From the NCBI GenBank assembly GCA_026195895.1, contig JAPHRO010000040.1, positions 1-64,000 on the forward strand: 64,000 nt of DNA, written 5' to 3'. A program made the position numbers and the translations under genes. How positions within the stretch are numbered: position 1 is the stretch's first letter; each line of letters opens with the position of its first letter. The notes under the pieces are model-generated. The model was not told where the DNA came from. It worked only from the letters and a program-made list of their open reading frames with translations, and did no database searches. This DNA comes from Gammaproteobacteria bacterium (GTDB taxonomy: Bacteria > Pseudomonadota > Gammaproteobacteria > SZUA-229). Positions 4,939 to 22,005 of this stretch are shown here, in pieces.

Positions 4939-6633
4939 ATGGAAAGAAAAACGATACAGGATGCAGATGCCTTGCTGCTCTATCGAGTAGGACCTGTCTA
5001 TTGTTGTTCACCGACATTGTCGGTGGAGTCCGTTATCATGCCGCCCAGACTGACGCACATGCCGGGTACTTCCCGAGCTGAGCCTGGGGTGTTTAAATTC
5101 CCCAGTGGCATTGTGCGCACCGTTGATTTGCGTGAACGTTTTGGGGTTGATGAAAAAAGCCGGGAACACCCGGGGCGGGTTGTTGTTGTTGAAGTGGAAG
5201 GCGGACATGCCGGTTTCTGGGTTGATGAAATAATCGATGTGATTCATTTTCCAGAACAGGGCTGGGGAATTGTGCCTGCACATATCCCGCGAAGTGTTTT
5301 CAGTCGAACACTGCTATTTAATAATAAAATTCAATTGTATGCGGATTTTGAAAATCTTAATAATTTTCGAGAAGTGGGTTATTTAAGAAAATATATCGAA
5401 TTGCTGAAAGGAGATCCTGAAAAAGTTGCCGCAAATAAATCTGCAACGGATGATGCGCGGCCAAAGTTAGTACCGGAATCAAGCGCCAGGAAATCAGCAA
5501 AAGAAAACCTTGCTCTATCATCTATTGATGCGAAAAAAACAGATAATTTGCCAAACTCTGTTTTGTCAACCGGGTCAGGTCATAAAATCTCTACAGGGTC
5601 ACAACTAAATAATGTTGCAGATGATTCAAAGATTTCCACTGATCGAAAAATCATAGAGTCCAGAGAAAAAGTTTTACAGAATAAAATTCAACAGTCGTCG
5701 TTTAATTCAGTCAAATCAAAACCCGGACCTGACAGGCCTGTTAGTTTTAATCAGCATTCGGCAAAGGACACTGCAATGCATCGAGATAGCAGACAGTTGA
5801 CTGCTACAACAGAGGCTTCTCTGGAATTGAATAGAGGAACTGTTGATTATCAGAGTTCCAGGGATAAAAGCAGCAATCAGTATCCGCCAAATAAAGAATC
5901 TTCTTATCAGGTTGATGAAGATGTGGATAACTCTGCTCTATGGGTGCATGGAAGCTTGTTTATATTTATTCTGATTGGAGTTTTTTATTTTATTAATGAT
6001 ATGGTTTTTACTGAAAAAGATCTAATAGTGGATGACGATTCTTCTTTGGTGCAAACCCCAGCTATAGTATCGACTATTCCTTCGGGCGCCGAAAAGATAA
6101 CTCTAGCAGCGGATGATGTTGCTTTCGATGGCGTGCTGGAAAGTGAACAGTTTGTGGAAGCCGAGGTTATTGCAGAAGATAATTATGCGGATGACTATCA
6201 TGCGATAATTGATGAAAATGAAGAAGGCGTGGTGATTGTATTGAATCAGTCTTATAAAGCCATGGAGAAATCATTAACTATTACGCAAGAGGGTATTGCG
6301 CAGGCTCGAGTCGGAGACATAAAAGAAAGTCAGCAAATAGAAAGTGCAGATGGTCAGCCGCTAGAGCATGATTATACCGGATCGCTTATAGACGAGAGCA
6401 AAGATGAGTCTCTGGCAGTTGAAATAGAGCCAGAAGTGCCAGTCATTAACGAAATAAAGCAGCCTGATTTTATTATCCATGTTGTAGTTAAGGGTGATAC
6501 CCTGTGGCACATTGCCAGGCGTTACATACACAATCCATTCAGATATCCAGAGCTGGCTCGGCTAAGTAAAATAAAAAACCCTGATTTAATATATCCCGGT
6601 GATAAAGTTAAAATCATATTTAATAGTAAATAG
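4939..6633 (+). CDS. CheW-like domain / transmembrane / LysM fusion protein
   Basis: 564 aa with three clear parts. Residues ~8-150 are a CheW-like domain (LLYRVGPVYCCSP, then VRTVDLRERFGV and VVVVEVEGGHAGFWVDEI), with no signal peptide before it, so it is cytoplasmic. Residues ~155-330 are a Ser/Lys/Gln-rich low-complexity linker. One membrane segment lies at about 334-356. An acidic stretch follows, then a C-terminal LysM domain at ~514-562 (VKGDTLWHIARRY ... NPDLIYPGDKVKI). CheW normally couples chemoreceptors to CheA, and LysM binds peptidoglycan. The arrangement suggests a link from a chemosensory array to the cell wall. The convergent neighbour is a chemoreceptor gene. FimV-like proteins also carry LysM and a TM, but lack CheW. 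Confidence 0.8.
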   Translation: MERKTIQDADALLLYRVGPVYCCSPTLSVESVIMPPRLTHMPGTSRAEPGVFKFPSGIVRTVDLRERFGVDEKSREHPGRVVVVEVEGGHAGFWVDEIIDVIHFPEQGWGIVPAHIPRSVFSRTLLFNNKIQLYADFENLNNFREVGYLRKYIELLKGDPEKVAANKSATDDARPKLVPESSARKSAKENLALSSIDAKKTDNLPNSVLSTGSGHKISTGSQLNNVADDSKISTDRKIIESREKVLQNKIQQSSFNSVKSKPGPDRPVSFNQHSAKDTAMHRDSRQLTATTEASLELNRGTVDYQSSRDKSSNQYPPNKESSYQVDEDVDNSALWVHGSLFIFILIGVFYFINDMVFTEKDLIVDDDSSLVQTPAIVSTIPSGAEKITLAADDVAFDGVLESEQFVEAEVIAEDNYADDYHAIIDENEEGVVIVLNQSYKAMEKSLTITQEGIAQARVGDIKESQQIESADGQPLEHDYTGSLIDESKDESLAVEIEPEVPVINEIKQPDFIIHVVVKGDTLWHIARRYIHNPFRYPELARLSKIKNPDLIYPGDKVKIIFNSK

Positions 6634-19965: not shown

Positions 19966-21180
19966 TTAGTTGCTGGCCAGCTGAAGACTTTCCCAGTCAT
20001 TTTCTTCAATTTCGTAAATATGCTCTTCTATAACAGAAGGATCAAATTTTTTCACACCCAGTAAAGCGTAATATGAGAAAGGTCGCTGATGTTTTTTATT
20101 GTAGCGATAAACCAGAAAATAGCCCTCGGCTATATGGCGTCGGTCTTCATCGGTCAGCTTGTCAGGGTGGCCATACAAAGCAGGTAATGTGATGGTGCGT
20201 CCGATGAGTAATTTATTGGGGTTGTAAATATATTTGCTATTGGCCTGATAAATATGCGGCCAGTAAAATGGATTGATATAATTTTTCTTTGATAAGCGCC
20301 AGAGGCTGTCGCCATTCACCAGATGGTGAGATTTTTCGGGAAAAAATGCTGCGGGTTTATTCTCTGTAACCATCGATTCGCTGTTGGTTGCTATCACATT
20401 GACAGTGGCTTGTTCGATGGGTGCTACTGGTTCAGGCTCATTGGCATATTGCAGAATGGCTGGCTCAAGGCTAATGGTTTCAGTTGTTTTTTGTGTGGCT
20501 GCTGGAGCCACCTGTTTTTTTTCGTCCACGACTTCGGTGGTGAGTGAGTTGATATTATTCGTATTGCTTTTGCCTGAGGTGTCGATGGTCAGAGTAGTTT
20601 CTGTTTCTATAGCAGGCTGATATAAATAAAATGCAAAGGCTGCGATTATCAGTGCGGCCGCAATTGATTTTATTGGCGGTTGATTACTGGATTTAATATC
20701 GGTATTTTTGTGTTTAATATTTTTACTTAAATAAGGTTCTCTGATAATTGTTTTTTGATTATTGGAATCAGTTGCAGTGGGTGAGGTTGCCGTGCTCGAT
20801 TGAGCTGCGGTGACGGTCGACTGGACTGGCGGTATGTTGCTGCTGATTTCTGCATTTGCTTTTGTTGCCGATATTGTCGCATCGTCCAGTTGCTGATCCT
20901 GAGTTTTATCTTTTAATGCTTTGGCCGGGGTAAATACAACACGAGGATGCGCGGCAATAATCAGGCTTTCACCGGTACGTGGGTTCCTTCCTTTGCGCTC
21001 CCGGGTCCAGTGAAGTTTAAAGCTGCCAAACTGATACAGCCGCACATGGCCATCATCGAGCAGGCCCTGTCGAATAGCATTAAAGAGTTCCCGGGAAAAA
21101 TTTCGCAGTAGTGTTTTATTGTCGCCGCTGATGCGAGCTATTTGATCACGAATAGCGCCTTCATGGATGCGCCCACTCAT
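19966..21180 (-). CDS. HU-like DNA-binding domain / transmembrane / LysM fusion protein
   Basis: 404 aa. Residues ~1-92 are an HU/IHF-type domain with a full beta-arm including the intercalating RNP tip (KGRNPRTGESL) and FTPAKALKD at the end. Residues ~93-168 are a Ser/Thr/Gln-rich linker. A single membrane segment spans ~171-189, with basic residues before it (cytoplasm in, C-terminus out). A periplasmic linker follows, then a LysM domain at ~286-332 (HHLVNGDSLWRLSKKNY ... NKLLIGRTI) and ~70 further residues. It would tie the nucleoid to the peptidoglycan. The ATG overlaps the stop of the second HU gene (ATGA), which implies coupled synthesis and probable heterodimers. Confidence 0.8.
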   Translation of the reverse strand: MSGRIHEGAIRDQIARISGDNKTLLRNFSRELFNAIRQGLLDDGHVRLYQFGSFKLHWTRERKGRNPRTGESLIIAAHPRVVFTPAKALKDKTQDQQLDDATISATKANAEISSNIPPVQSTVTAAQSSTATSPTATDSNNQKTIIREPYLSKNIKHKNTDIKSSNQPPIKSIAAALIIAAFAFYLYQPAIETETTLTIDTSGKSNTNNINSLTTEVVDEKKQVAPAATQKTTETISLEPAILQYANEPEPVAPIEQATVNVIATNSESMVTENKPAAFFPEKSHHLVNGDSLWRLSKKNYINPFYWPHIYQANSKYIYNPNKLLIGRTITLPALYGHPDKLTDEDRRHIAEGYFLVYRYNKKHQRPFSYYALLGVKKFDPSVIEEHIYEIEENDWESLQLASN

Positions 21181-21440
21181 GACGGCGGATCCTCTGGCTT
21201 CCAGGGTTTGACGAAGTCTTTTAATTTTTGTGAGGCGCGGAAAAACAGATTTTTTCGTCCGCTCTGAATATTGCGGCTATCCCGCAAGCCCAGTGTGCCA
21301 AAGCCACGGATGATCACATTTTTGCCTTCACCAAGATGTCGAGCCATTGCGTCCAGTTCCTGATGCAGCAATCTGTGGGCTTCTTTCTGGGTGATATTCA
21401 GTTGCTGAGCCAGCTGTCTAATGAGTTCGCTTGTCGTCAT
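21177..21440 (-). CDS. HU-family protein with short, Pro-less arm
   Basis: 87 aa, the length of a normal HU/IHF subunit. The helical N-terminal half (ELIRQLAQQLNITQKEAHRL) and NVIIRGFGTLGLRD fit the family. The arm then reads RNIQSGRKNLFFRAS, so the usual RNPxTG tip with its kinking proline is absent. It is probably able to dimerise but with altered DNA bending. It is the first gene of a two-gene operon with the membrane-bound HU-LysM protein and is best seen as its soluble partner. Confidence 0.78.
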   Translation of the reverse strand: MTTSELIRQLAQQLNITQKEAHRLLHQELDAMARHLGEGKNVIIRGFGTLGLRDSRNIQSGRKNLFFRASQKLKDFVKPWKPEDPPS

Positions 21441-21615: not shown

Positions 21616-22005
21616 ATGGCAGCCGACAATACCCTGCTTACCATCATAGAATTAGGCGGTTATCCTAATTTTTCCCCCCTGTACCAGCGCAAGGGTTTTC
21701 AAACTGAAATTATTGATAGTATGCGCAAGGCCATCAAGTGGCTGAAAAAGAATCAGCCCAAAGTGATTGTGGCGGAGTTTAATTTTCAGATTGATTTTCG
21801 AGATCGAAGCAGTAACCTGGATTCGCTGATGGCGGTATTGCAGCGCATGCCCGATACCCGGCTCATCGTATTCTATGATCAGGATCAGCGGCCACAACTG
21901 GATGATTTTCTGGCGGTGTATCCGGTTTTTGAAATCATCGCTTTCCCGATCGAGGAGCAGGCTCTGGAAGCGGCGCTGGATCGTGCCATAGAGGAGGCTG
22001 CATGA
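21616..22005 (+). CDS. Pseudo-receiver-like protein
   Basis: 129 aa, soluble. The alternation of hydrophobic strands and helices (LLTIIELGG, PKVIVAEFNFQ, TRLIVFYD, FEIIAFPI) resembles a CheY-like receiver. However, the acidic pair and the phospho-acceptor Asp are not in their usual places, so phosphorylation is unlikely. This assignment is structural reasoning from the pattern, not a clear family match. The stop overlaps the next start (ATGA). Confidence 0.6.
   Translation: MAADNTLLTIIELGGYPNFSPLYQRKGFQTEIIDSMRKAIKWLKKNQPKVIVAEFNFQIDFRDRSSNLDSLMAVLQRMPDTRLIVFYDQDQRPQLDDFLAVYPVFEIIAFPIEEQALEAALDRAIEEAA

Follow-up and report, generated by a model that had tools for sequence, protein, structure and literature searches.

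Whether and how the bacterial chromosome is mechanically tied to the cell envelope is a long-standing question. It is raised anew by two overlapping genes in a gammaproteobacterial stretch of 64,000 nucleotides, hereafter the window. The downstream gene, HUb, encodes an HU-type DNA-binding domain, a membrane-spanning segment and a LysM domain in one chain, and the upstream gene, HUa, encodes a second HU. The initial annotation saw in this arrangement a possible link between the chromosome and the peptidoglycan. The domains of both proteins and their conservation are real, and the pair could act as a chromosome-wall tether. The features of the locus are as follows.

19966–21180, minus strand: HUb, 404 aa, in the order HU domain, linker, transmembrane (TM) helix, linker, LysM, helical extension
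20905–21144, minus strand: HU/IHF domain of HUb (aa 13–92), PF00216 at E 7.9e-16, fold match at Z 9.2, net charge +9
20980–20991, minus strand: GRNP, arm tip of HUb (aa 64–67), from the alignment of 13 HUb sequences
20671–20895, minus strand: predicted cytoplasmic disordered linker of HUb (aa 96–170), pLDDT below 50
20611–20670, minus strand: predicted single TM helix of HUb (about aa 171–190), by hydropathy in 13/13 sequences, helix 171–186 in the model
20344–20610, minus strand: predicted periplasmic disordered linker of HUb (aa 191–279), pLDDT below 50
20176–20343, minus strand: LysM of HUb (aa 280–335), Pfam LysM at E 0.009, NCBIfam LysM/Kbp at 7.3e-7, Kbp fold match
19969–20175, minus strand: helical C-terminal extension of HUb (aa 336–404), folded with the LysM, 41% mean pairwise identity
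21177–21440, minus strand: HUa, soluble HU-family subunit, 87 aa, PF00216 at 2.7e-12, arm about 12 residues short and without the proline tip
21177–21180, minus strand: stop/start overlap, 4 bp (ATGA), between HUa and HUb

An intact HU domain with an RNP arm tip had been placed at the N-terminus of HUb, and the profile search recovers it there, PF00216 scoring 58.5 bits over aa 13–92 against a Pfam cut-off of 22.4. In the AlphaFold model this part matches solved HU/IHF chains at Z values of up to 9.2, and the closest solved structures for the fold include IHF. The arm-tip proline is invariant among the 13 aligned HUb sequences, and the HU part carries a net charge of +4 to +11 across the family. 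The model of HUa (pLDDT 86) matches HU chains at Z values of up to 10.7. Judged from their sequences, HUb and HUa probably both bind DNA. Against PF18175 (HU-CCDC81) HUa reached 29.9 bits, under the cut-off of 35, and HUb gave no match; a kinship of HUa with CCDC81-like HU was dropped, as the same model also responds to genomes with ordinary HU.

HUb was searched for in relatives, in the class, in the family and in named genome contigs, and 13 distinct complete genes were found in several gammaproteobacterial families (the window, G002, G014, G022, G024, G026, G011, G020, G050, G190 and G137, together with the Chromatiales records L039 and L042). In G005 the contig end cuts HUb, with HUa and the HU part visible; L046 is cut at the contig start with its HU out of view and was left out of the complete set. 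At all 13 complete loci HUa is the immediate upstream neighbour of HUb, encoded on the same strand and overlapping with it, and it is seen at 14/14 loci where this position is visible. The overlap measures 4 bp in 11 of the 13; G024 has 1 bp, and for L042 the figure is 8 bp when translation is taken to start at the second ATG. The carriers are some uncultured gammaproteobacteria, and within the family 9 of 54 genomes have the pair. Four HUb, the window's own included, were present in a class sample of 369, and a phylum sample of 398 contained none besides the window's own; the only other match in the latter, G586, was rejected as a normal HU whose tail is rich in Ala, Lys and Pro. Such patchy occurrence argues for a function that is dispensable or niche-specific and not for a universal tether. 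Relatives of the pair were absent from viral contigs and plasmids, and there is therefore no sign of a mobile origin.

Conservation of the neighbourhood extends to the pair itself, but not beyond it: HUa always adjoins HUb, whereas the remaining flanking genes differ from genus to genus. TRAP transporter genes flank the pair in the window and its nearest kin; judged by eye, the flanking genes are FHA and phosphatase-like in L039 and era/recO-like in L042. A gene for a 129-aa protein, weakly response-regulator-receiver-like, runs divergently from HUa in the window (21616–22005, plus strand) and adjoins HUa only in the window's nearest kin. In one genus a ParA/MipZ-like ATPase gene (L045:8399-9058, minus strand) is convergent with HUb at 11 bp from its end; its candidacy as a functional partner was rejected, as it is convergent and limited to that genus. 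In one genome a lytic-transglycosylase-like gene with solute-binding and SLT domains (L063:9878-11287, plus strand) lies 63 bp downstream of HUb.

When 40 HU-fold sequences are placed in a tree, all HUa fall into one clade (support 95/86) and all HUb into another (97/99), each distinct from IHF-alpha, IHF-beta and the HU that the same genome encodes; the E. coli HU/IHF reference rows were entered by hand, and the window genome's own HU and IHF stand for the same groups. HUa and HUb likewise score far below the NCBIfam cut-offs for IHF and group with neither IHF-alpha nor IHF-beta. Since the window genome also encodes normal HU, IHF-alpha, IHF-beta and a lysine-rich HU, the pair is additional to the usual set. 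About 14 kb beyond the window, the same genome encodes a further HU-like protein whose N-terminal tail is rich in lysine and alanine, with AAKKK repeats (C13:78190-78477; L004:1498-1941, minus strand). The distance matrices of the two proteins correlate (r 0.71 for HUa with HUb, 0.81 for HUa with the LysM part, Mantel p 0.0002), a pattern that shared species history gives as well; this fits HUa, HUb and the LysM part being co-inherited as a unit, contact not being proven by distances alone. Perfect co-occurrence, gene overlap, two separate clades and matched distance trees together give indirect support to an HUa/HUb heterodimer.

Such a heterodimer had been proposed together with an unequal bend of the DNA, on the ground that HUa overlaps HUb by 4 bp and has an arm lacking the proline tip. 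The coupling stands, in 13 genomes, and the description of the arm is right for the window, but the shortened arm is not a family trait. It occurs in 5 of the 14 HUa (the window, L008, L009, L010 and L015, by 9–13 residues), while in the other nine the arm is full-length and has a differing tip that contains proline, often YLP, so the idea of an unequal bend is confined to the window's clade.

A single strong TM segment (hydropathy 1.8–2.8) is present in every one of the 13 HUb, and by the same measure neither an N-terminal hydrophobic signal nor a second TM segment occurs in any of them. Lys and Arg are more numerous before the helix than after it in most members, the bias being weak in L008 and L042, and this excess favours the HU domain inside and the LysM outside. 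The single TM helix thus agrees with the first description, with the two ends of HUb predicted to lie on opposite sides of the membrane, and an N-in/C-out topology is supported by hydropathy and charge. The two ends of the protein are conserved, with mean identities of 45% for the HU end and 52% for the LysM end. The linkers between them are variable: the cytoplasmic one ranges from 63 to 263 aa at 17% identity and the periplasmic one from 68 to 271 aa at 15%. Conserved ends joined by variable linkers that never fall below 63 and 68 aa form the pattern expected of tether spacers.

A C-terminal LysM is the remaining element of the original description, and it is supported by orthologues and by fold. 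The window's HUb scores 16.4 bits with Pfam LysM, against a cut-off of 20.9, and three orthologues exceed that cut-off with 28.2, 27.1 and 21.4 bits. In the AlphaFold model the domain matches the LysM of Kbp (7vcm) at Z 6.2 and an rmsd of 1.2 Å over 55 residues. After it comes a conserved extension, helical and about 60 aa long and absent from the earlier description of HUb, which is modelled at pLDDT above 90 over nearly all its length and forms with the LysM a compact C-terminal unit; searches of HUb against Pfam and NCBIfam gave no match for aa 336–404. The LysM would be expected to bind peptidoglycan. Some loci share only this end of the protein: L047 and L048 match HUb by the LysM only and were rejected, and G335 was excluded as a TM-LysM protein without HU, its 195-aa product (L065:8737-9324, minus strand) carrying part of the same extension. 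Elsewhere in the window (4939–6633, plus strand) a 564-aa protein combines a CheW-like domain (4.3e-16), a hydrophobic segment and a C-terminal LysM (1.1e-10), and is a further case of a cytoplasmic adaptor that carries a wall-binding domain; relatives with E below 1e-25 occur in 10 of 58 genomes, and several of these align over just a portion of the protein.

The layout of HUb is consistent with chromosome-to-peptidoglycan tethering, and we give slightly better than an even chance to an IHF-like HUa/HUb heterodimer that is bound to DNA and tethered through the inner membrane to the peptidoglycan. The two proteins would be the subunits of one dedicated HU/IHF-type dimer, produced from an overlapping two-gene operon and binding DNA without strong sequence preference. 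The flexible cytoplasmic linker of HUb would join this dimer to the single inner-membrane helix, and the periplasmic LysM and helical extension would grip the peptidoglycan. The resulting passive tether may hold part of the nucleoid at the envelope, for example during segregation or division. Whether a dedicated heterodimeric HU, one subunit of which passes through the inner membrane, provides a direct DNA-to-peptidoglycan link in Gammaproteobacteria is in our estimate an evenly balanced matter. Counted against the tether are the sub-threshold LysM score of the window's HUb, the action of some LysM proteins such as Kbp on potassium, and the normal HU and IHF that the cell keeps. As a tether, HUa/HUb would exemplify an HU/IHF-type pair that has taken on a membrane role, using a wall-binding domain other than SPOR, in a two-gene unit whose DNA and wall ends are both readable and which is small enough for expression in E. 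coli.

HU of many species forms homodimers, and HUb could likewise work as a homodimer, with HUa as a separate and perhaps inhibitory HU; we hold this to be very improbable, given co-occurrence and overlap at 13/13 loci, the two separate clades and the matched distance matrices. The two proteins might instead make up a membrane-bound regulator, the LysM reading the state of the peptidoglycan and the HU pair acting IHF-like at specific promoters in the manner of ToxR-type one-component regulators. Sequence specificity is possible for IHF-like heterodimers, the order of cytoplasmic DNA-binding domain, TM helix and periplasmic sensor is a known layout, and in one genome the lytic-transglycosylase-like gene stands just downstream on the same strand. 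We nevertheless consider a regulator possible but unlikely, because neighbours that are not conserved between genera leave no constant local target, and unstructured linkers of 63–263 and 68–271 residues are better suited to tethering than to relaying a signal.

A polar or septal organiser of the FimV/HubP kind, in which the LysM would set the place and the unstructured cytoplasmic part would recruit proteins, with DNA as one cargo, appears to us quite unlikely. It draws on the need of FimV for its LysM in polar placement (PMC12918733), and on the one genus in which a cytoplasmic linker of 183–263 aa occurs next to the ParA/MipZ-like ATPase gene; yet that linker is not conserved in the family, and the ATPase gene is convergent, outside the operon and confined to this genus.

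Several known systems resemble the proposed tether in part. HUa and HUb are two diverged HU-fold subunits, as are IHF-alpha and IHF-beta. IHF is soluble and encoded by genes that are not linked, whereas the HUa and HUb genes are linked, the proteins form separate clades, and HUb is predicted to be membrane-anchored. By family model and fold, the nearest LysM to that of HUb belongs to Kbp (YgaU), a soluble potassium-binding protein of BON and LysM domains. FimV binds sacculi by its periplasmic LysM, and HubP, which also combines a TM helix with a LysM in the periplasm, places oriC at the pole (PMC12918733). These proteins show that a LysM connected by a single membrane helix to a part in the cytoplasm is able to bind sacculi and, in HubP, to help place the origin. 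HubP/FimV share with HUb the one inner-membrane helix between periplasmic LysM and cytoplasm, but in them the LysM is N-terminal, there is a signal peptide and a TPR/FimV domain, HU is absent, and DNA would be held indirectly; the domain order of HUb is the reverse, and Pfam gave no TPR match in it.

The nearest analogue is the HU-TM-SPOR architecture, which likewise has one or more cytoplasmic HU domains, one TM helix and a peptidoglycan-binding domain outside. These Bacteroidetes proteins with CCDC81-like HU (Pfam HU-CCDC81_bac_1/2) were reportedly described by Burroughs et al. in 2017, with a proposed role in chromosome partitioning. HUa/HUb differ from them in being split over two genes, in having a LysM and helical extension for the SPOR domain, of which Pfam finds none after the TM helix of HUb, and in belonging to Gammaproteobacteria. 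The initial annotation had offered the locus as a candidate for an undescribed system. In the literature searched we found no paper that pairs HU with LysM, and the HU-TM-LysM pair is absent from it, but the idea of combining HU, a TM helix and a wall-binding domain is already known from the HU-SPOR proteins. New to the literature searched are the division into two subunits, the combination of LysM and helical extension, and the occurrence in Gammaproteobacteria.
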